DNA of 64,000 nucleotides, taken from assembly GCF_009184635.1 (NCBI RefSeq), contig NZ_WELI01000006.1:62001-126000 (forward strand). Direction: 5' to 3'. This DNA is from Rudanella paleaurantiibacter. Its GTDB lineage: Bacteria > Bacteroidota > Bacteroidia > Cytophagales > Spirosomataceae. Positions 685 to 11,635 of this stretch are shown one piece after another (positions within the stretch are counted from its first letter, which is position 1; each line of letters begins with the position of its first letter). Under the pieces are notes generated by a model, which was not told where the DNA came from, searched no databases, and saw only the letters and a program-made list of their open reading frames with translations. Position numbers and translations under genes: made by a program.

Positions 685-1287
685 CTACACCCCCGGCGGT
701 GACAGGTTAATGACGTCTTTGATCAGACCCGTGCGCAGGTTAAATACCCAGCCGTGCAGGTTTGGAATGGTATGACTCGCCCACATTTTCTTGACGCTAT
801 CGGTAGCGGCCAGATTTCGTACCTGCTCCTGCGTGTTCAGTTCCACCAGCCGGTCGAACCGTTCGTGGTCATCGGCAATCTGGTCGAGTTCGGCCTGGTA
901 CATGGTTTTTACCCGGGCAATATTATCCAGCCACCCGTCAATCAGGCCCAGTTTGGTACCGGCCATGGCTGTTTTCACGCCCCCGCACTCGTAATGGCCG
1001 CACACAATCACGTCGGTCACTTGTAGCACCTCAACGGCATACTGCACTACGCTCAAGGTGTTCAGGTCGCCGGGTACCACCAGGTTGGCAATGTTGCGGT
1101 GAACAAACATCTCGCCGGGGTCAGCACCGGTAATCTGCTCGGCCGTTACGCGGCTGTCGGAACAGCCAATCCACAGAAAGTCGGGCTTCTGCCCCGACGA
1201 AAGGGTATCAAAGTAGCCGTCGTTGAGTTCAAGACGATCCTGAACCCAGGCTTTATTCATGAGCAATAAGCGATCAAATGGGCGCAT
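685..1287 (-). CDS. can: Beta-class carbonic anhydrase
   Basis: A 200-residue beta-carbonic anhydrase, colinear with the E. coli Can type. It interconverts CO2 and bicarbonate in the cytoplasm. The zinc site is visible as C42-S-D44-S-R46 in WIGCSDSR and H98/C101 in CGHYECGG. The start at 1287 is supported because the first residues (MRPFDRLLLMNKAWV) align with the N-terminal helix of Can. The gene overlaps the end of the upstream SulP transporter by 14 nt in another frame, which implies translational coupling: bicarbonate brought in by SulP would be equilibrated by this enzyme. A strong terminator follows at 603-633. The family call is certain; the in vivo direction of the reaction is inference. 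Confidence 0.95.
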   Translation of the reverse strand: MRPFDRLLLMNKAWVQDRLELNDGYFDTLSSGQKPDFLWIGCSDSRVTAEQITGADPGEMFVHRNIANLVVPGDLNTLSVVQYAVEVLQVTDVIVCGHYECGGVKTAMAGTKLGLIDGWLDNIARVKTMYQAELDQIADDHERFDRLVELNTQEQVRNLAATDSVKKMWASHTIPNLHGWVFNLRTGLIKDVINLSPPGV

Positions 1288-2851
1288 AGGTGGGTTCGTT
1301 TCGTTTCCGTTGGGTTACCTGCCGCAATTCATACTTTATTCCCTGATTTTTGGCCGTCTCGGCAAAATCAACCAGCAGGGTGTACACGTCACTATCCACA
1401 AACGTAGCGTACCGGCCGTCGACGAGCACCGAATCGCCGGGACGTAGCGATTGCAGGGCTTCTTTCAACTGCGGCTTGCTCAGAAAGTACATATCGCGCT
1501 GAAACTTGATGAGTACGTTGTTGCCCTCCCGAATCACCCGGAACGAAGCCTGCGAGTTGGTGTACAGCACAAACAACAAACCAACCACCGCGCCCATGGC
1601 GATACCAATAAGAAGGTCGGTGAAAATGATGCCTACTACGGTCACCAGAAACGGGATAAACTGACTCATGCCTTCGCCATAAATGGCCGCCAACACGCGG
1701 GGTTTAATCAGGTTAACACCCACCACAATGAGCAGGGCCGCCAAACACGCGAGCGGAATGTGGTTCAGGATAGAACCGGCAAAAAACAGAGATAACAGCA
1801 ACAGACCACCATTCACCAGCGTAGAAAGCCGGGTCTGGGCTCCACTCACGATGTTGGTTGTGGTCCGAACGACCACCGATGTTACCGGTAGGCCACCGAC
1901 CAACCCTGACGTGATGTTGCCAATTCCCTGCGCCACTAGTTCGCGGCTCGACGAGGGCACGCGCCGGAGGGGGTCAAGGCGCTCCGATGCTTCGAGGTTG
2001 AGCAGGGCTTCCAGGCTGGCTACCAGCGCTAACGTAAGGGCAACTACGTACACACGTCCGCTGCCGAGGGCGCTCAGGTCGGGGAAGTTCATCAGTGAAG
2101 ACAAACTCGCCCCCGACAGATCAGGAATCCGAACCATGTGGCCACTCGAATCGCCAAGGTACCACTCGGGCATCGAGACCCGGAATAGCTGGTTCAGGCC
2201 CACGCCCGCAACTACCACCACCAGCGCAGCCGGTAGCCAGTCGAAAAAGCGATTGCCCCGGTTGGTCATGGCGCTCCAGCCGAGCAAAATGGCGAGCGAA
2301 ACCACGCTGATGATAACGGCCCCCGGTGCCGGGTCGGCAAAGGCCCGCACCAGTTCGGTGAGGGTGTTTTCGCGGTCGGCCAGTTGCTGAAACTCAAAAT
2401 CACCTTCGAAATCGGTGTCGCGACCGAGTGCGTGCGGAATCTGCTTTAGTATAATCACAATGCCAATACCCACCAGCATCCCCCGCACGACTGAGTTGGG
2501 GAAGAAACTGCTGAGCCGCCCGGCTTTCAGAAAACCAAGCACTAACTGAATAAGGCCGGCCAATACCAGCGCGACCAGAAAACTCTCGTACGAGCCGAGC
2601 GACCGGATGGCATCGGCGACGATAACAGCCAAACCGGCTGCAGGGCCACTTACGCTCACTTCGGAGTCGGAAAGGGCGCCAACTACTAAGCCGCCGATGA
2701 TGCCCGCAATGAGGCCAGACAGTGAGGGGCCGCCCGAGGCCAGCGCAATACCCAGACAAAGAGGGAGCGAGGCCAGAAAGAGCGAGACCGAGGCCGTCAG
2801 ATCCTTGCGGATATGGTCGGTCGGGTGACGAACAGGAAGATCAGGAGCCAT
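1274..2851 (-). CDS. SulP-family anion (bicarbonate/sulfate) transporter, CA-linked
   Basis: A 525-residue SulP (SLC26) transporter. The N-terminus carries the family signature (ASLPLCLGIALASG, then GLIAGIIGGLVVG and SGPAAGLAVIVADAI), followed by many hydrophobic segments. A short C-terminal STAS-like domain (about 425-520) contains VLVDGRYATFVDSDV. The family moves sulfate, bicarbonate and other anions, usually coupled to Na+ or H+. Overlap with a carbonic anhydrase gene makes bicarbonate the best guess here; SulP-CA pairs and fusions are known in bacteria. The start ATG at 2851 has a TTCCTTTG stretch immediately before it. It is a paralogue of the SulP gene at 7856-9484, which has a different promoter architecture. 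Confidence 0.92.
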   Translation of the reverse strand: MAPDLPVRHPTDHIRKDLTASVSLFLASLPLCLGIALASGGPSLSGLIAGIIGGLVVGALSDSEVSVSGPAAGLAVIVADAIRSLGSYESFLVALVLAGLIQLVLGFLKAGRLSSFFPNSVVRGMLVGIGIVIILKQIPHALGRDTDFEGDFEFQQLADRENTLTELVRAFADPAPGAVIISVVSLAILLGWSAMTNRGNRFFDWLPAALVVVVAGVGLNQLFRVSMPEWYLGDSSGHMVRIPDLSGASLSSLMNFPDLSALGSGRVYVVALTLALVASLEALLNLEASERLDPLRRVPSSSRELVAQGIGNITSGLVGGLPVTSVVVRTTTNIVSGAQTRLSTLVNGGLLLLSLFFAGSILNHIPLACLAALLIVVGVNLIKPRVLAAIYGEGMSQFIPFLVTVVGIIFTDLLIGIAMGAVVGLLFVLYTNSQASFRVIREGNNVLIKFQRDMYFLSKPQLKEALQSLRPGDSVLVDGRYATFVDSDVYTLLVDFAETAKNQGIKYELRQVTQRKRNEPTYAPI

Positions 2852-3142
2852 ACAAAGGAAATAAGGTTACTGGGTCATTAAACAATCTACAGTTTTACGT
2901 GTACCAAATTGGTTTCGTGTACGACAAATTGACCGGCAATAATCCTGCCGGTTGCCGTCGGTTATCAGCCATTTGTACCTATTAAACTGATTTAAACGGA
3001 CTACTTACTACTATTTAGGGGATGAATTGAATCAACTAAAAAAGAAGTAGTAAAAGTAATTTGCCTTAAATATAGATTAAAACCGGTGTTTTGTTTCCAG
3101 AGGGAAGGCAGCTTATGCTTTCTTTTTTGTGGGTTAAAACCG
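2852..3142. other. Intergenic region between SulP operon promoter and dabB terminator
   Basis: This AT-rich spacer holds the upstream region of the leftward SulP-carbonic anhydrase unit. On the reverse strand two GTTTAA words lie 10 bp apart near 2982-2996. This does not match the 11-bp arrays at dabA. No gene was seen. Confidence 0.5.
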
Positions 3143-3240: not shown

Positions 3241-5109
3241 TTACGACGATCGGTAGGCCATATCGAATACCGACCGTACGTGTGGGCCCAGAAAAACGCG
3301 GGCGTAAATGCGGATAAGCGCCAGACCATCGACAATGAAACTGAGCGCGGTGAAGAAGGCCAGCGCCAGCTGATTCTCGTGAATGTGGGTGAAAATGAGG
3401 TCTTCGCCCACAAACGTCGGTGTGATCGGGAAGCCCGAAACCCCCAGGCAACAGAGCAGAAACAGGAACGCCAGCAGCCGGTGTTTATAGGCATGGCCGT
3501 GGAACCGCCCGAGGTCGATACTGGTTTCGAGCGTTTTCAGGCGGGTGAGTACCACATACCCAAGAATGCCAGCTACCACAATCCCGCTCAGGTACAGCAG
3601 GGTCTGTTCGAACCGGAAATGCTCGTTGAATGAGATGGCCAGCGCCACAAAAAAGTGATTCATCAGAATCAGAACCCAGCTCTTCCGGGCTTTTTTGCGT
3701 TCGGTGAAGGCTTTCAGGACCATCAGCAGCCCCATGAGCGAGAATACCATCGGTAGGGCGTGCACCAGGTCGGGAGCGAGGGCATCTTCGTTGACCAACA
3801 GGAGCAAACCGAGCCCGTAGATCGGTACAAAGAAAAGCAGCACCCGATTGAGCGTCAGAAAATCGAGCCGACGGCCAACTGCTTTGAGCGGATTCCACAG
3901 AAACCGGTACATGAACGAGTCGAGGTTCCACTCTTTAAGGCAAAGCATGTAGAACGTGTACGCGATTTTTTTCGGGTAAAACCGCTCAATCGACTGCGGA
4001 TGCGGTGAAAAATGATAAAACTGCTCCCGAATCTGATAGCTTACTACCGAAGGCGACACTAGTAATTGGTACGTCCGCAAAAACGCGTTACCCGCAAAGT
4101 GAAATAGGGCCAGATGCCCCCAACCGGCCGCAATCTCAATAAACATGAGGCCAATCTGTGCAATGGATGCGTAGGCAATCTGACTTTTTACGGACGACTG
4201 TACCCGCGCAATACCCGTAGCTACCAGGGCCGAACACAGGCCTACGGTCCCAATGAGTACCCGTACCGACACTTGTTGCTCCCAGAACGGATAGGTGCGC
4301 AACAACAGAAAAACACCCAGGTGTACCGATAGCGATCCGTAGAAAATCGCGCTCGACGGGGTGGGGCCTTCCATAGCTCGGGGCAACCACGACGAAAACG
4401 GCAGCTGCGCCGATTTGACGGCCGCCGACAGCAGAATCATCACCGAAATAAATACCCCGATCAGGGTGTGGCTTTGCAGGTGCTCATGCACCAGCTCGTA
4501 GTTGCGCAGTTGCAGAAACGTGGTGTTCTGATGCCAAAGGTGGTGACTCATCCACATGGCCAGAATCAGACCCACGTCGCCAATGCGATACAGCGAAAAC
4601 ACTTTTACGGCGTTCTTAACCGGCAGATACCGGTCGCGGTAGAAGGCAATCAGCAAAAATGACGAGATGCCCAGAATTTCCCAGCCAACAAACAGGGTTT
4701 CGAGGTTGCCCGACAAAATAGTGAGCGTGTACCCGACATAGAAAAAGAGAATGGTATTGAAAAAGCGTTTGTAGCCCGCTTCGCGGTGCATGTACGCCCG
4801 GCTATACCGCGTGATCAGAAACGTTAGAAACGCCCCCACAAACAGATACACCGCCGTGACCGTGTCGAAATCAAAGTCGACAAAAAACTCGTAGCCGCTT
4901 GTCTGGAGCAACACAATCTCTTTTACATCGAGCGTAGGGTGGCCGTCCAGTAGCCAGACACCCATAAACAGCACGGCCCCCAGCAGATGCAGGCCAACGG
5001 TGAGTACGGCAATCTGCGAAATAAGCGTTTCGCGCCGGGCCGGAACCAGCAGGCTGACCACGTAGCCTGCGAGGGGCAAAAGAACAAAGAAAGGAAGTAA
5101 CGAAGCCAT
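3241..5109 (-). CDS. dabB: DabB, NuoL-like membrane subunit of the DIC accumulation pump
   Basis: A 622-residue polytopic membrane protein of the complex I/Mrp antiporter family (NuoL/ND5-like). It shows the conserved GWEILGISSFLLI (E144) and AAVKSAQLPFSSWLPRAM (K232) proton-channel motifs. It is only 9 nt downstream of dabA and followed by a terminator, so the two genes form a two-gene operon. In the DAB system, established in Halothiobacillus and other bacteria, DabB is the cation-driven membrane partner that energises vectorial CO2 hydration by DabA. It is not part of a nuo operon: no other complex I gene lies nearby. The C-terminal ~200 residues contain further hydrophobic segments ending in a short charged tail. 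Assignment as dabB rests mainly on the DabA neighbour. Confidence 0.92.
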   Translation of the reverse strand: MASLLPFFVLLPLAGYVVSLLVPARRETLISQIAVLTVGLHLLGAVLFMGVWLLDGHPTLDVKEIVLLQTSGYEFFVDFDFDTVTAVYLFVGAFLTFLITRYSRAYMHREAGYKRFFNTILFFYVGYTLTILSGNLETLFVGWEILGISSFLLIAFYRDRYLPVKNAVKVFSLYRIGDVGLILAMWMSHHLWHQNTTFLQLRNYELVHEHLQSHTLIGVFISVMILLSAAVKSAQLPFSSWLPRAMEGPTPSSAIFYGSLSVHLGVFLLLRTYPFWEQQVSVRVLIGTVGLCSALVATGIARVQSSVKSQIAYASIAQIGLMFIEIAAGWGHLALFHFAGNAFLRTYQLLVSPSVVSYQIREQFYHFSPHPQSIERFYPKKIAYTFYMLCLKEWNLDSFMYRFLWNPLKAVGRRLDFLTLNRVLLFFVPIYGLGLLLLVNEDALAPDLVHALPMVFSLMGLLMVLKAFTERKKARKSWVLILMNHFFVALAISFNEHFRFEQTLLYLSGIVVAGILGYVVLTRLKTLETSIDLGRFHGHAYKHRLLAFLFLLCCLGVSGFPITPTFVGEDLIFTHIHENQLALAFFTALSFIVDGLALIRIYARVFLGPHVRSVFDMAYRSS

Positions 5110-5118
5110 TCCGGAAGG

Positions 5119-7626
5119 TTATGAGAGGATAAAGACCGGGAAATTTTCCCCGTTCGATTCAACCAGCGGTTCCACGTCGGCAACGGCGTCGAGGTGGTCG
5201 GTAAGGGGATAGTAATCGACAAAGTCGCCTGCTTTGAACACGTACAGGGCGCGGGTTTCGGGGTGTACCGCCACCAGATTGATCCAGTTGTTGCTGTACC
5301 ACTCGTACACCGCCGGAATTTTCTGGATGGTAGCGAGTACTACGTCCGGGTAATGCTCCACAATCATCAGCAACCGCAATGGGTCGTGTACCTCGATCAT
5401 CTGGCTGGGTAGGCCCGGCCGCAGATCGCCGTCGATACCGTTGGCTACCCCAATCAGGCCCATTACGTTATGCGGCAGCTTGGTACCCGCCCCCAGCTTC
5501 TGGTTGTCCATCCGGGAGAAAAAGTACTCCAGATTAATGCCTCCGCAAACGGGCGTGGCCGCTTTCAGAATATTGAGCAAATAGTGGCCGTCGGGGTCAA
5601 TGGCATAATTGTACGAGTTCATGAGCGCCCGCCGGTCCAGAAAAAGCCCCTTCGTCATGGCCCGCCGACCCACAATGCACAGAGCGTTGGTGGCGTGGTT
5701 GAGCTCAGGGCGCGGTTCAAACAACGACACCGACCGGATTTTTACCTTGTCGTGAATTTGTTCGGGTGTGAGGCTCGAATCAATCGACTCGAACCGGCGC
5801 GACCGTTCCTTGGCGTTCAGGTCGAGGGCTTCGGCGAAGGTTTGCCGGTTGAGTTGGTGGAACTCCCGATTGCCAACCTGTAGCGCCTGATCGTCGAAAA
5901 ACGCAATCTCGTCGCGGGTGGTGTCGTGCAGGGCTCCTACAAACTGCGTATCGTCAGGAATGTCAATACCCCGTTCGTGGAGCAACACCCGTACCTGCGG
6001 GTGGTTGGCCATGTAGCACAGTACCCGCGCATTGGCCGAGCCCGACCGCCCCGAGCAGGCACCACAGTCGTAGGCTGCGTAGTGGGGGTTGTTTATCGTG
6101 CTGGAGCCATGCCCAACTACGTACACGAGCGAGGCAAAATTTTTGACCAGCCCGATGCTTTTGAGGACTCCCTCGACCCGGTCGGCCATTTCGGGTACAG
6201 TAAACCCTACCTGTAGGTCATTTTCGGGGGCGTGCTGATGTTTATGCTCAATAGTCAGCCGTGCCGCTCCATCCATGTGCCGAAACGACGACGCCATTGA
6301 CGGGCTCATGGTAGGCCGGAAAATATTCAGGAACAACCGCAGTGCCGACCAGAAACCGAGGGTTTGCGAAATAAGCCAGCCGCTGTAAAACGAGTGCGCG
6401 TGCTTGTTGAAATGCACGTCTTTTTGCTTCTTGGTTGTGCGTCCCTGCTCTTTGATGAGGTACTTGGGCGTAACCGGAGCGGGGCAAACTTTTTCGTAGA
6501 ATTTGCCGGTTTCGGGCTGGAAGAAAAATTCAACCCCGAAGAAACCGGGTGTCCCGAAGGTTTCGCAACGAGGGTCGAGCTGTTCCAGATACCGACGCAT
6601 CGACTCCTCCCGGTCGTCGATACAAAATAGGGCCTGAAAACTTTTGCCGAGCGTTTGTTTGCGGGCGAGTTTGTTCTGCTGAATCCCCGCCAGCACCTGA
6701 TCGTAATAGCTCCACTCAAACGCTTCCTGCCACATCATCAGTACCTCGTCGCGCTCGGTAACGGGGGCGTTGGCAAACAGGTCGGTCGGTTTATGGGCTA
6801 ATTTCTGGCTCAGGGGTTGCCATTGGGTACCGAAATGGGCGTCGAGCGCGTCAATTTCGAGTAGCAGTTCAAACGTAATCAGGTCGTGCAGGGAGAGCTG
6901 CCGGCGGTCGAGCAGAGTTTGGGGGCCATCCTCAATGGCCGACACCATGCCCGACCAGCCCTGATGCGCAAATTGCCCATCGAAGAGGTAGGTTTCGTAC
7001 AGGGCTTCGTCGCCCACGAGCAGAGCGAGCAACTCGCTGATGGAGGGGGTGCCGTCGAGCAAAAGCCGCCGGGCCCGGCGCGTCCGGAAAAAGCTGGTAA
7101 AGCTATGGCGTTCCATCTCGCGTAGGGCGTCCAGAAACGTTCTGTTGGTTACCGGAAACCCCCAGATCGCGATGCCCTGATCGAGGTACGAGCAAAGAAT
7201 CCGAAACAGAAGCGGATGCACCAGCGAGTCGAGGTCAATATGGTATTGCTTTTTCCAGGTGCTGCGCAGGGAGCCTATGCGCGGGGTACCGGTGGCAGGG
7301 TAGGGTTTCTGGAGCAGCTTTTCGAGCCAGCTTTCGAGCCGGGCTTCGCCTTTGTGCCCAACAATTACTTTTTTCAGCACAACGGGGCTGATCTGCCCAC
7401 TGCTGTACATTGCCCGGTATTCATCCAGGGCCAGCGCTACCTTGTAGCCGAACACCTGAGACGCCGACCGGATGGCGTCGAAAAACGGCCGATCCTGAAA
7501 CGAATGGAGTGTATTGTGGTGAACAAAGTCTTTCAGCGGGGCTTGGGCGGGTAGGTAGTGCTTGAGGCTGTGAATGACCCGGTGTTCGTCGAACCCAGAG
7601 TGGTTTGTTTCCATAAACGGTTGCAT
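5119..7626 (-). CDS. dabA: DabA (DUF2309/UPF0753), cytoplasmic zinc subunit of the DIC pump
   Basis: An 835-residue DUF2309 protein, the carbonic anhydrase-like subunit of the DAB inorganic-carbon pump. The expected zinc/catalytic set is present: C335 and D337 in FCIDDREES, H506 in VVGHGSS and C521 in YDCGACSGRSG. The 15-residue H-to-C spacing agrees with characterised DabA. The frame is open upstream to a TTG at 7662, but that TTG overlaps the likely -7 element CACCTTTG (7660-7667). The first ATG (7626) is therefore preferred, with 7614 (METNHSG) as an alternative. With dabB it should convert CO2 entering the cell to bicarbonate and trap it. The promoter carries a four-box TTAA array (7679-7715). 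The predicted role is to supply bicarbonate for anaplerotic and biosynthetic carboxylation, since no Calvin-cycle gene is seen here. Confidence 0.93.
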   Translation of the reverse strand: MQPFMETNHSGFDEHRVIHSLKHYLPAQAPLKDFVHHNTLHSFQDRPFFDAIRSASQVFGYKVALALDEYRAMYSSGQISPVVLKKVIVGHKGEARLESWLEKLLQKPYPATGTPRIGSLRSTWKKQYHIDLDSLVHPLLFRILCSYLDQGIAIWGFPVTNRTFLDALREMERHSFTSFFRTRRARRLLLDGTPSISELLALLVGDEALYETYLFDGQFAHQGWSGMVSAIEDGPQTLLDRRQLSLHDLITFELLLEIDALDAHFGTQWQPLSQKLAHKPTDLFANAPVTERDEVLMMWQEAFEWSYYDQVLAGIQQNKLARKQTLGKSFQALFCIDDREESMRRYLEQLDPRCETFGTPGFFGVEFFFQPETGKFYEKVCPAPVTPKYLIKEQGRTTKKQKDVHFNKHAHSFYSGWLISQTLGFWSALRLFLNIFRPTMSPSMASSFRHMDGAARLTIEHKHQHAPENDLQVGFTVPEMADRVEGVLKSIGLVKNFASLVYVVGHGSSTINNPHYAAYDCGACSGRSGSANARVLCYMANHPQVRVLLHERGIDIPDDTQFVGALHDTTRDEIAFFDDQALQVGNREFHQLNRQTFAEALDLNAKERSRRFESIDSSLTPEQIHDKVKIRSVSLFEPRPELNHATNALCIVGRRAMTKGLFLDRRALMNSYNYAIDPDGHYLLNILKAATPVCGGINLEYFFSRMDNQKLGAGTKLPHNVMGLIGVANGIDGDLRPGLPSQMIEVHDPLRLLMIVEHYPDVVLATIQKIPAVYEWYSNNWINLVAVHPETRALYVFKAGDFVDYYPLTDHLDAVADVEPLVESNGENFPVFILS

Positions 7627-7659
7627 GGCGTTAGCACTTCCTGATACCAGGAACGGGGG

Positions 7660-7667
7660 CAAAGGTG
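7660..7667 (-). promoter_or_regulatory. Putative dabA -7 element
   Basis: Reverse-strand CACCTTTG differs at one base from the Bacteroidota -7 consensus TAnnTTTG. It lies 11 nt downstream of the last TTAA box of the array at 7679-7715. This places the transcript start near 7653, downstream of the TTG at 7662. Confidence 0.5.
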
Positions 7668-7678
7668 ATTGGCACCAG

Positions 7679-7715
7679 TTAAAAAGTACTTAAGGTGAGT
7701 TTAAGAAGTGATTAA
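7679..7715 (-). promoter_or_regulatory. Four TTAA boxes at exact 11-bp spacing, dabA side
   Basis: TTAA occurs at 7679, 7690, 7701 and 7712, each exactly 11 bp from the next. Read toward dabA, the boxes have a [CT]TTTAA or CTTAA character. An 11-bp direct-repeat period is the footprint of winged-helix response regulators of the OmpR/PhoB family; Bacillus PhoP and cyanobacterial Pho boxes also have TTAA-centred repeats. The regulator itself is not in this window. Confidence 0.65.
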
Positions 7716-7761
7716 AGACCGGGCCAGTAAGCCGTTCTGAAAGCAGGGAGCGCCTTTTTCA

Positions 7762-7798
7762 TTAATCTTCTTTTAATATGGGCTTAAGGGTGGCTTAA
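7762..7798 (+). promoter_or_regulatory. Four TTAA boxes at exact 11-bp spacing, SulP side
   Basis: TTAA occurs at 7762, 7773, 7784 and 7795, again with exact 11-bp spacing. The array lies 57 nt upstream of the rightward SulP ATG. The two arrays face away from each other across 46 bp. A clear -7 element for the SulP gene was not found; TAAATTG near 7843 is the closest match. Confidence 0.65.
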
Positions 7799-7855
7799 CT
7801 CGCCCGGCCGAACGTTGCAGGGCATTTACGAACGGAATACATCTAAATTGACGTA

Positions 7856-9484
7856 ATGGAGACCACTTCCAAAGCCCCTACACATTATGTGCCTGCCAAA
7901 GGATTTGCTGGTTTAACGCAAAACTGGCAGTCGGACCTACTGTCTGGTTTTCTCGTTTCACTCATCGCGCTGCCTCTCAGTCTGGGCATTGCGTCGGCTA
8001 GTAATTTTCCGCCGATTATGGGCGTACTGACGGCCATTGTAGGCGGTATGGTGGTGGCCTTTTTTGCCGGTTCTGAGCCGACTATCAAAGGTCCGGCGGC
8101 TGGTTTGATTGTGATTGTAGCGGGGGCGGTCGAAGAACTCGGTCGGGGAAATGTAGAGATTGGCTGGAAGCTGGCGCTGGGGGTTATTCTGGTGGCGGGT
8201 GTTGTGCAGGTGCTGTTTGGGGTGCTGAAAGTGGCTAAACTGGCCGATTTCTTCCCGCTCTCGGCGGTGCACGGAATGCTGGCCGCCATCGGCATCATCA
8301 TCATGTCGAAGCAAATTCACCTGGCGGTAGGGGCTCACCCAGCCGATCTGAAAGGCAAGGAGCCCCTCGAACTGATTGCCATGGTACCCCATAGCATTGC
8401 CACTATGGAGTGGCATGTGGCCGTTATCGGGTTTGTGAGCCTAGTGATTATGTTTGGCTGGCCAATGCTCAAAAGCGCAACCATCAAGCGTATTCCGCCC
8501 GCACTGGTTGTCTTGGTCGTGGCTATTGCGCTGGGCCTGTACTTCCACCTCTCCGACACCCGGCAGTATGGCGATATCAAGCCGCTGGTAAACCCCGGTG
8601 AGTTTAAGCTGGCGCTCAACGTTGATTTTGGGGCCTGGTCTGGCGACCTTTTGCCGATTGCCCTGAAATACCTGGCTATGTTTGCCCTTATTGGCTCGCT
8701 CGAATCGTTACTGACGGGTAAAGCCATTGACCTGCTCGATCCGTACAAGCGCAAATCGAACCTGAGTGCCGACCTGACCGCCGTTGGTATCGGCAATATG
8801 GTGTCGGCTTTGTTGGGTGGCCTGCCCATGATTTCGGAAGTGGCCCGTTCGTCGGCCAACCTCAACAACGGCGGCAAAACCCGCTGGGCCAATTTCTTCC
8901 ACGGCTTGTTTTTGCTGGTATTTGTGGTGGCACTGGTGCCGCTGATCAAGCTGGTTCCGGTAGCAGCTCTGGCGGCTATTCTGATCTCGGTCGGGTTCCG
9001 GTTGGCCAACCCGAAAGAGTTTCGGCACATGTACGAAATCGGGCCGGAGCAGCTTATTGTCTTCGTCGTTACCATCATTGCGACCCTCGCCACCGATTTG
9101 CTCATTGGTATTGCCGTTGGGATTGTGGCCGAGTTTATCATTCAGGTTGTGCTGGGGCTGCCGCTTAAGTACCTCTTCAATCCTGATCAGTACATGAAGT
9201 CGAACGGTAACCAACATACGCTGGTAATCAACGGGGCTGCGGTTTTTACCAATTATCTGAGCATCAAAAAGCAGTTAGACACCATTCCGCAACAGGAAGG
9301 GCAGTGCGTGACCGTCGATTTGCACCACGCCCGGTACGTTGACCATACGGTTATGGAGAACCTACATAACTACGAGCGCGATTTCCAACTGGCTGGCGGC
9401 CAATTCAACGTTATCAATCTGGATGAGCACAAACCTTTGTCGACTCACCCGTTGGCGGCCCGCCGGAAGCAACCTGCCTTGTAA
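7856..9484 (+). CDS. SulP-family anion transporter, divergent from dabAB
   Basis: A 542-residue SulP/SLC26 protein with the family signature LIALPLSLGIASASN near residue 40, then TAIVGGMVVAFFAGS and KGPAAGLIVIVAGAVEE. About a dozen hydrophobic segments follow. A C-terminal STAS-like domain (about 445-530) contains VTVDLHHARYVDHTV. It is transcribed divergently from dabA and shares the same style of phased TTAA operator, so it is probably co-regulated with the DIC pump and likely carries bicarbonate. Sulfate transport cannot be excluded from sequence. The start ATG at 7856 is the first in frame. A terminator follows at 9568-9598. Confidence 0.92.
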   Translation: METTSKAPTHYVPAKGFAGLTQNWQSDLLSGFLVSLIALPLSLGIASASNFPPIMGVLTAIVGGMVVAFFAGSEPTIKGPAAGLIVIVAGAVEELGRGNVEIGWKLALGVILVAGVVQVLFGVLKVAKLADFFPLSAVHGMLAAIGIIIMSKQIHLAVGAHPADLKGKEPLELIAMVPHSIATMEWHVAVIGFVSLVIMFGWPMLKSATIKRIPPALVVLVVAIALGLYFHLSDTRQYGDIKPLVNPGEFKLALNVDFGAWSGDLLPIALKYLAMFALIGSLESLLTGKAIDLLDPYKRKSNLSADLTAVGIGNMVSALLGGLPMISEVARSSANLNNGGKTRWANFFHGLFLLVFVVALVPLIKLVPVAALAAILISVGFRLANPKEFRHMYEIGPEQLIVFVVTIIATLATDLLIGIAVGIVAEFIIQVVLGLPLKYLFNPDQYMKSNGNQHTLVINGAAVFTNYLSIKKQLDTIPQQEGQCVTVDLHHARYVDHTVMENLHNYERDFQLAGGQFNVINLDEHKPLSTHPLAARRKQPAL

Positions 9485-9870: not shown

Positions 9871-10034
9871 TAACGCGAATTATGCATATTGGCTGACGCC
9901 AGGGCCTTCGACAGGCTCAGGCTGACTGGGGACTCTCAAGCCGAATGTCAGCTTGAGCCTGTCGAAGGCCCTGGCGTCAGCAACTACTTGTAGGACAGGG
10001 ATTTTGTCGTGCGTATTATATATAACTCACGTTA
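9871..10034. repeat. ~165-bp palindromic element, copy 1
   Basis: The ends are imperfect inverted repeats related to TAACGTGAATTATGCATAAT (9871-9890 and 10015-10034). Inside is a 35-bp hairpin arm GCTGACGCCAGGGCC...GGCTGAC (9892-9926) with its complement at 9947-9981. One mismatch and the loop word CTCTCAAG are visible. The core word GGCCTTCGACAGGCTCAG is a widespread bacterial palindromic repeat. The same architecture recurs at 14839-15003. The right end overlaps the porin stop codon. Confidence 0.75.
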
Positions 10035-11474
10035 AATAAACACCTGATATTGCAACGTCAGCTGACCACGACGACCCGCCGGGGCGAGTTGCGTGCCCGA
10101 TGTCCCGTAGTAAGGCCGATTCTGGTAGTCGAGGGTCATTTTTGAGTTGTGCCCCCGAATGAGCCAGTTCAGGCCGATGTTGTACACGCCCAGAGGCTCG
10201 GTCAGGCGGGTGTAACGGGCAATCTGCGCCTGCGCGTACGGCATCAGGGCACCGTTGCCCCGACCCAGCAAATCCTGAGGTAGCAGATACCCGACCTGAC
10301 TGTACAGCACATTGCCCGTTCCGAACATCGGGAAGGCATTTCCCTGAATACCCGATACGCCCGGCAGCGTAACTGTAGAGCCGCTGGCAGGGTTCATAAT
10401 GCCGTTGAAACGCAGGTAGTCTTTGCCGTAATCAGTATGGAAGTAGCCCAGATAGGCGTTGATCGCGCTGCCTTTCGCCGGGCTGACCGGCATGTCCAGA
10501 AAAGCCGCTACCGACCACAAATTCAGGTTCTGATACACGGTGTCGGCTACGTTTTCGCGGTGCCAAACGGCGTTTTTCTGGTAAACGAAACCGCCTTCGA
10601 GGTTGAGCATTCGCTTCTTTCCCAAATAGGTGCCCGTCATGTAGCCGGGTGTCTGATTCGTCTCTTTGTCCAGAAACTGATACGCCACAAAACCCTGAAC
10701 CTGTTTGTGGTGCCCCTTCAGCGCAAACGTTGCGTTCGACGAGAGGGCCGGGGGCGTCGCTCCAGTGGTTTGAATCGGAAACGGGTCGCTCAGGGCAAAT
10801 CGGTAGTCGATTTTGCCTACCTGCCCACGGGCATATACGGTCAGCTTGCGCGAAAATTCGTCGGTTTGGTCGACGGTGGCCTGGGCAAATACCGGCACAT
10901 CCATGCTCATAATCGAACTGACGCTCGGCTGGCTAAACCGCGAGAGGCCGTTCACAATGGTGAGCCCACCACCTACTTTCAGGTAATCTTTATCGCGGAA
11001 AACCAAGTATTCGCCCACGGCATCGTGAAAAAAGGCCGCAATTTTCCGGTTGCTGGGTGTACCGGCTGTATTGAAGCCCGGAAATCCGTTCAGGTAATTG
11101 AAGTTGTTCATCCCAAACTGGAGATAGATGAACGCACGGTCGTTGAGTTGCCCGAACATCTGCATCCGGGTTCGGCGGAGGCCAATATCGAGGGTTTGGG
11201 GTTTGGCTTCCTGAATAACGGTTGTACCTGGGTTGCTCTGATTGAGCCGCAGCCAGGTCTGGTTTAGAAATGTGACCTTGAAAAAGTGGGTGCCCGATGT
11301 ATTCAGGTTGTATTTCAGCTCGTTTTTGTCGGCCACCGGTGCCGGTTTGGGTTGCACAACCTCGACAGCGTGGCTGAGACTATCTCGGGCAGCCGGGGCG
11401 GTTGTCGGCGAAACAGATTGGCCTGGCACGGCTCGGGAGGCCAGCAGGGCCCCGGCAAAAAGCAGTTTTTTCAT
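10032..11474 (-). CDS. Outer-membrane porin
   Basis: A 480-residue outer-membrane beta-barrel porin. It has a Sec signal peptide (MKKLLFAGALLASRAVPGQS) and a proline/alanine-rich linker. A barrel follows with alternating strands such as FKVTFLNQTWLRLNQ and RAFIYLQFGMNNF, ending in LTLQYQVFI with an aromatic near the C-terminus. It resembles the OprO/OprP-type porin fold but is not assigned a substrate. The promoter region has three TTAA boxes at 11-bp register and a TAGTTTGG -7 element, like dabA, so it may form the outer-membrane entry route of the same regulon (inference). Its TAA stop lies within the right terminal repeat of the palindromic element at 9871-10034. Confidence 0.8.
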   Translation of the reverse strand: MKKLLFAGALLASRAVPGQSVSPTTAPAARDSLSHAVEVVQPKPAPVADKNELKYNLNTSGTHFFKVTFLNQTWLRLNQSNPGTTVIQEAKPQTLDIGLRRTRMQMFGQLNDRAFIYLQFGMNNFNYLNGFPGFNTAGTPSNRKIAAFFHDAVGEYLVFRDKDYLKVGGGLTIVNGLSRFSQPSVSSIMSMDVPVFAQATVDQTDEFSRKLTVYARGQVGKIDYRFALSDPFPIQTTGATPPALSSNATFALKGHHKQVQGFVAYQFLDKETNQTPGYMTGTYLGKKRMLNLEGGFVYQKNAVWHRENVADTVYQNLNLWSVAAFLDMPVSPAKGSAINAYLGYFHTDYGKDYLRFNGIMNPASGSTVTLPGVSGIQGNAFPMFGTGNVLYSQVGYLLPQDLLGRGNGALMPYAQAQIARYTRLTEPLGVYNIGLNWLIRGHNSKMTLDYQNRPYYGTSGTQLAPAGRRGQLTLQYQVFI

Positions 11475-11578: not shown

Positions 11579-11586
11579 CCAAACTA
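11579..11586 (-). promoter_or_regulatory. Putative porin -7 element
   Basis: Reverse-strand TAGTTTGG is close to TAnnTTTG. It lies 12 nt downstream of the last TTAA box, nearly the same geometry as at dabA (11 nt). It would give a leader of about 100 nt. Confidence 0.45.
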
Positions 11587-11598
11587 CCGGCCTACCCG

Positions 11599-11635
11599 TT
11601 AAAAGCATCTGACGATGTTGTTAAAATGGCATTAA
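11599..11635 (-). promoter_or_regulatory. TTAA boxes in 11-bp register upstream of porin
   Basis: TTAA occurs at 11599, 11621 and 11632, with spacings of 22 and 11 bp, so one position of a four-box array is degenerate. Read toward the porin, the words CTTTAAT, TTTTAAC and TTTTAAC resemble the dabA array. Confidence 0.55.

Follow-up and report, generated by a model that had tools for sequence, protein, structure and literature searches.

The Pho boxes bound by PhoB have an 11-bp period and a position next to the -10 region, and in some groups of bacteria they are centred on TTAA. A TTAA direct repeat is also known for PmrA/BasR, whose box is given in a passage of PMC10927774 as a YTTAAK repeat or HTTAAD-N5-HTTAAD, with the form TTTAAG-N5-TTTAAG in A. 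baumannii; according to the same passage, PmrA of K. pneumoniae uses the half-sites CTTAAT and CCTAAG. The CiaR box of streptococci is NTTAAG-N5-TTTAAG, and the search pattern for CiaR-activated promoters places TATAAT ten bases after TTTAAG (passage of PMC3091779). For Bacteroidota, TTTG is the core of the -7 element TAnnTTTG (excerpt of PMC7366714). HaeR/RprY of P. gingivalis were considered as a further parallel and set aside, one paper passage giving no comparable box.

The window, i.e., the whole 64-kb stretch of Rudanella paleaurantiibacter DNA that was analysed, contains two arrays of this type. The eight TTAA boxes reported in a sequence-only reading of this DNA are present at 7679, 7690, 7701 and 7712 and at 7762, 7773, 7784 and 7795, and the claimed equal spacing is exact, all six intervals within the arrays being 11 bp. 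The first array (putative operator A, 7679–7715, minus strand) reads toward dabA and the second (putative operator B, 7762–7798, plus strand) toward a SulP gene. TTAA occurs 114 times in the window (GC content 0.549), and when periods of 5–30 were tried, runs of at least three boxes appeared only at period 11, as two runs of four. In 60 first-order Markov resamples the mean number of runs of at least three was 0.03, with no run of four, and about 7e-5 four-box arrays are expected in 6.72 Mb for independent boxes at the TTAA frequency of the window. A two-box run at 3066 was left as chance and another, at 11621, forms part of a weaker site (operator C) described below.

The genes next to the arrays are, as had been proposed, inorganic-carbon uptake genes. 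The dabA gene (5119–7662, minus strand; PF10070, 740 bits) has a listed ORF that opens with TTG; the likelier starts are two ATGs in the same frame, near 7626 and 7614. It is followed by a proton-antiporter-like partner (3241–5109, minus strand; PF00361), named dabB from its position and family. On the other side lies the gene of a SulP-family transporter (7856–9484, plus strand; PF00916), probably a bicarbonate transporter judging by its neighbours, with a BicA model score below the cut-off. Transcription from the dabA promoter may continue into a second SulP gene (1274–2851, minus strand) downstream of dabAB, behind which stands a beta-carbonic anhydrase gene (685–1287, minus strand; PF00484).

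The proposal of the sequence-only reading depended on the pattern exceeding chance in the genome, and it does so. The own genome (6.72 Mb) holds five four-box TTAA arrays at four places against none for the reversed pattern, and 12 three-box matches at the 11-bp period against none in the reversed control. With free spacing (3–11 nt each) no excess was seen in the own genome (61 three-box matches vs 79 in the control), 12 of the 61 being those with 7/7 spacing, i.e., the 11-bp period. The array is present in 33 of 59 genomes, the own one included. The totals over the 59 genomes, summed by hand, were 92 array matches and 73 control matches, with 63 of the latter in a single genome (G038), and 89 against 10 when that genome was left out. 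In G038 and G442 this control (AATT at 11 bp) was counted 63 and 14 times, respectively, and perhaps represents a different repeat family. A set of 76 distinct arrays, from which the two arrays of the window were excluded, was used for ORF overlap, spacer motif and promoter register. None of the 76 lies inside an ORF according to a simple ORF caller, although in a few cases the array reaches over the end of an ORF, by at most 15 nt.

Outside the window, the own genome carries an array upstream of an OmpR-type regulator gene with its kinase (C1), one between YtxH and DUF2383 genes (C12), and one upstream of a 146-residue ORF that lacks a Pfam match and lies after a probable proB (C26). The array at C12 is directed toward a hydrophobic 29-residue ORF (L125:4880-4969) and a 51-residue ORF (5041-5196); a longer ORF after an array in G020 (L027) resembles the latter by eye. 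The probable proB (L126:3511-4614) before the C26 array and a probable proA (L124:7188-8453) behind the C1 regulator–kinase pair, both named from a look at the sequence and Pfam, hint at a proline or osmotic-stress link. Among relatives, the array neighbours include CusB/HlyD, outer-membrane efflux, AcrB-type, SulP and DabA genes, as well as universal stress protein, YtxH and genes without a common theme. As arrays stand at efflux, stress or unrelated genes in many relatives, carbon uptake is not the general function of the array. In eight genomes a 313–334-residue protein (L103:2006-2980 and relatives) follows kinase and array; by look it is a membrane-anchored coiled-coil protein, and the one tested had no Pfam match.

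A TTTG that is the putative -7 element of dabA (7660–7663, minus strand) lies exactly 15 bp past the last TTAA of operator A, and a GTTG toward SulP (7814–7817, plus strand), one mismatch from TTTG, lies exactly 15 bp past the last TTAA of operator B. At these two sites the TA of TAnnTTTG is replaced by CA and GA, respectively. The claim that the arrays face outward thus holds in the sense that a -7-like element is placed 15 bp beyond the gene-side end of each. In the 76 arrays, TTTG at offset 15 was found on 41 of 152 sides, in 40 arrays, while other offsets gave a mean of 0.9 and a maximum of 3 of 152 sides; it was absent in register from the remaining 36 arrays. On a simple ORF call, 28 of the 41 TTTG sides were among the 87 facing a called 5' end and 13 among the other 65. 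The spacers also contain a directional motif (log-likelihood -2118 vs the best value of -2192 in 30 shuffles). Orientation read from spacer composition alone agreed with the direction of the genes by 30 to 13 and was ambiguous for the window arrays, so it was abandoned and their direction was set from the -7 register.

Four of the five own-genome arrays have an exact TTTG at 15 bp and the fifth has GTTG; those of C1, C12 and C26 show TTTG in register in one direction. A promoter model of three boxes plus the -7 element, with no or one mismatch, gave exactly five sites in the own genome, namely those of the C1 regulator, the C12 small-ORF transcript, the C26 146-residue ORF, dabA and SulP. When up to three mismatches were allowed, 22 and 22 matches were obtained on the two strands, compared with 14 and 16 for the controls. 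One of the three-mismatch sites is operator C (11599–11635, minus strand), in which three of the four TTAA boxes are exact and the other is degenerate; it has a TTTG (11580–11583, minus strand) exactly 15 bp past the last box, and reads toward a porin-like outer-membrane protein gene (10032–11474, minus strand) named by look and without a Pfam match. Since such a site taken by itself is at background level, operator C is graded only as a probable operator of the porin-like gene, weaker than A and B. Homologues of the porin-like protein (63% identical) are preceded by an exact array in G013 and stand behind an array-preceded SulP gene in G040.

The C1 array lies 306 bp upstream of a regulator gene (G000:C1:113070-113744), with TTTG in register toward that gene. 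The protein has a receiver and a Trans_reg_C domain, and the adjacent gene encodes a HAMP-HisKA-HATPase histidine kinase, which makes them an OmpR/PhoB-type pair. The genome has 11 Trans_reg_C loci, and at the other 10 no run of even two boxes occurs in the stretches examined. Six paralogues were aligned and are 47–56% identical to the C1 regulator. The recognition helix of the C1 regulator carries an Asn-Phe pair, found in none of the nine other own-genome regulators (of 10) whose helix was read.

The relation between helix and array was followed in 132 distinct homologues of the C1 regulator, comprising matches down to an E-value of about 1.3e-72 and two weaker own-genome ones; a homologue had to share at least 44% identity across 170 aligned residues, and some 20 weaker matches of the listing, as well as all matches beyond it, were left out. 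Six loci (L016, L097, L100, L103, L112 and L231) had first been picked for their arrays, and their regulators were also among the matches of the homologue search. At least three exact TTAA boxes at 11 bp were present within 2.2 kb of 25 of the 44 Asn-Phe regulators, compared with 1 of 88 others (Fisher p 5e-14, kinship ignored), and arrays of at least four boxes beside 19 of 44 and 0 of 88, respectively. About 30 of the loci span only 1.5 kb on each side, and L163 was counted as array-less with an array 1.6 kb off (L116). The array of at least three boxes was absent from the stretch examined at 19 of the 44 Asn-Phe regulators, including the one beside dabAB in G040 and a subgroup whose helix starts with Leu-Asn. 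Conversely, an Asn-Phe regulator was found within 2.3 kb of 15 of the 76 arrays, as far as the loci were examined. A phylum-wide scan gave array matches in 113 of 395 genomes, control matches being present too; 8 of 20 regions chosen from it contain an Asn-Phe regulator, the others being phage-like or unrelated by look.

The paralogues with Asn-Tyr in the helix showed a different association. At least three CTAA boxes at 11 bp occurred at 14 of 66 such paralogues, typically just behind the kinase gene, vs 0 of 44 Asn-Phe regulators; CTAA runs at other periods (7–15) were seen at no more than 1 of 66, and at least three TTAA boxes beside none of the 66. The rule was noticed in loci L135-L184 and L246-L325, with TTCTAA/CTAA arrays beside Asn-Tyr and TTAA arrays beside Asn-Phe regulators. 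In the own genome, the sites C12:357923, C28:110284 and C28:115001 resemble the CTAA type with TTTG in register, the first having an Asn-Tyr regulator some 1.5 kb away. Six changes are required on the tree to explain the Asn-Phe state, of which at least three fall on well-supported branches. An independent-pairs test gave p 0.25 with three supported pairs, which are too few for significance; the pairs went in the same direction in 2.5 of 3 cases on average, with an opposite pair in one of 200 random pairings. Matched by eye, the variable Phe/Tyr position corresponds to Arg201 of PhoB and Asn196 of PmrA. PmrA Asn196 is reported as base-specific in a crystal-structure paper (PMC4660055); an earlier paper gives, in a passage, a specific PhoB Arg201–guanine bond and a docking model without a PmrA Asn196–DNA contact (PMC3973317). 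If it holds, the correlation of Phe/Tyr with TTAA/CTAA would provide a simple operator-assignment rule for a large Bacteroidota regulator family.

The arrays recur with carbon-uptake genes in three families. The full promoter model, applied with at most one mismatch in its 20 positions, picks out dabA in the own genome, G001, G031 and G040, and SulP genes with arrays occur in the own genome, G001, G033, G040, G047, G222 and G440. In G040, which belongs to another family, the divergent arrangement of the window is repeated, with porin–SulP and dabA–dabB leading away from two arrays. A kinase–regulator pair follows just behind dabB, and within 2.2 kb of its regulator gene there is no array belonging to that gene. 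A third family shows the order regulator–kinase–array–SulP–carbonic anhydrase (G047) or regulator–kinase–array–SulP (G440). At the SulP arrays of G047, G440 and G222 the -7 core has a single mismatch, being ATTG or CTTG. Conservation of the array at dabA, on which the sequence-only reading had made its proposal depend, is thus partial: it was found in 4 of 26 dabA-bearing genomes, the own one included, and an array of at least three exact boxes was absent from the dabA locus examined in the other 22, some of these loci being cut off at contig ends. For distant dabA homologues the whole locus was scanned, because the stretch taken as upstream begins inside the gene. A second, distant dabA of the own genome (L062, G000:C26:386012), about 31% identical, has no array in the locus examined. 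A partial literature search of titles and abstract starts found no description of two-component control of DAB carbon uptake.

The arrays of the window are most probably four-site operators of the CusR-like C1 regulator, which would activate dabA and SulP and perhaps the porin-like gene. The sequence evidence, namely the arrays and their period, the promoter register, the link between helix and array type, the array in front of the regulator gene itself and the repeated occurrence beside carbon-uptake genes, gives good support to an operator through which this one regulator acts on dabAB and SulP. Two dimers of the phosphorylated protein would occupy the four TTAA boxes in head-to-tail order, all on the same face of the DNA helix. 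The last box would lie near the position of the -33 element, 11 bp before that of TAnnTTTG, a placement which suggests recruitment of RNA polymerase (class II activation) at dabA and SulP, with perhaps the same action at the porin-like gene. The C1 regulator would also control its own gene.

Overlap of the last box with the presumed -33 region would also suit repression of dabA and SulP by the C1 regulator. The constant distance of 15 bp to the -7 element and a spacing equal to that of the CiaR search pattern quoted above argue against this and favour activation as the likelier mode, repression being unlikely. It is still less probable that another OmpR-type regulator of the own genome, an Asn-Tyr or other paralogue, binds the arrays alone or in competition. 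The similarity of the six paralogues and the combination of CTTAAT and CCTAAG half-sites reported for K. pneumoniae PmrA make cross-recognition conceivable, but Asn-Tyr regulators adjoin CTAA and not TTAA arrays, and Asn-Phe is present in none of the nine other own regulators aligned. That the arrays are AT-rich runs arisen by chance, or an element that bends DNA and has no dedicated regulator, can practically be dismissed: TTAA runs are AT-rich and nearly half of the 76 arrays lack a -7 element in register, but neither explanation accounts for the period, the result of the reversed-pattern control, the promoter register or the link with helix type.

Control by a PhoB-like phosphate regulator, as suggested in the sequence-only reading, seems very improbable. 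Its broader part is retained, the OmpR/PhoB superfamily being the best explanation, and both the C1 regulator's membership of it and the TTAA-centred Pho boxes of some groups would agree with PhoB. However, no PstB over the cut-off was found in the own genome (best 155 bits, cut-off 343), no pho or pst gene was recognised beside the own-genome arrays, and boxes expected before pst/pho genes were lacking, as none of the relatives' five pstB loci over the cut-off had a run of at least two boxes (about 1.5 kb on each side). The most PhoB-like own regulator (L216, below the PhoB cut-off) has the helix ERTVDVHIRKLREKI and no array. On these grounds the PhoB reading was rejected. The C1 regulator itself scored 173.9 bits with the PhoB model (cut-off 296.2) and 166.8 with the Bacteroidota model (cut-off 270).

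The analysis yields, for one strain, a candidate regulator, an operator defined to the base, a promoter register and five strong promoters. As to the kinase signal, the efflux targets in relatives would be consistent with metal or envelope stress, and the own genome with low inorganic carbon or pH. More speculatively, and with considerable doubt, the pair may be in some Bacteroidota a dedicated inorganic-carbon controller of porin, SulP, DabAB and carbonic anhydrase that senses low CO2/bicarbonate or a proxy such as envelope pH, with one helix residue (Phe/Tyr) deciding between TTAA and CTAA arrays across the paralogue family.

Among described systems, PhoB and its Pho box share with this locus the superfamily, the 11-bp period and the position by the -10 region, and differ in helix and target genes. 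CusRS/CopRS/CzcRS (TIGR01387/TIGR01386) is the best-scoring family for both the C1 regulator and the kinase, and RND efflux genes follow the array in several relatives; in contrast, the arrays of the own genome have no recognised efflux gene next to them, and both proteins remain below the family cut-offs (260.4 vs 279.2 for the regulator with TIGR01387, 212.1 vs 292.55 for the kinase). CiaR, whose protein was compared only by the helix quoted in a passage of PMC3091779, resembles the present case in its 11-bp direct repeat and in the distance of 11 bp between the TTAA of the last box and the -10/-7 element, whereas it has two boxes, the helix VVEVYVSKVRKKL with Ser-Lys in place of Asn-Phe, and belongs to another phylum and promoter type. 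PmrA/BasR, as far as described in the passage of PMC10927774, shares the TTAA direct repeat with an 11-bp period and an OmpR/PhoB-family regulator; it differs in having two half-sites where four are present here and in targeting lipid A genes, and the C1 regulator scores 164.3 bits with the PmrA model against a cut-off of 330. As the box matches those of PmrA and CiaR and the proteins fall below the CusR/CusS cut-offs, the arrays would work like a PmrA/CiaR-type operator that is assigned to none of the PmrA, CiaR and CusR families.
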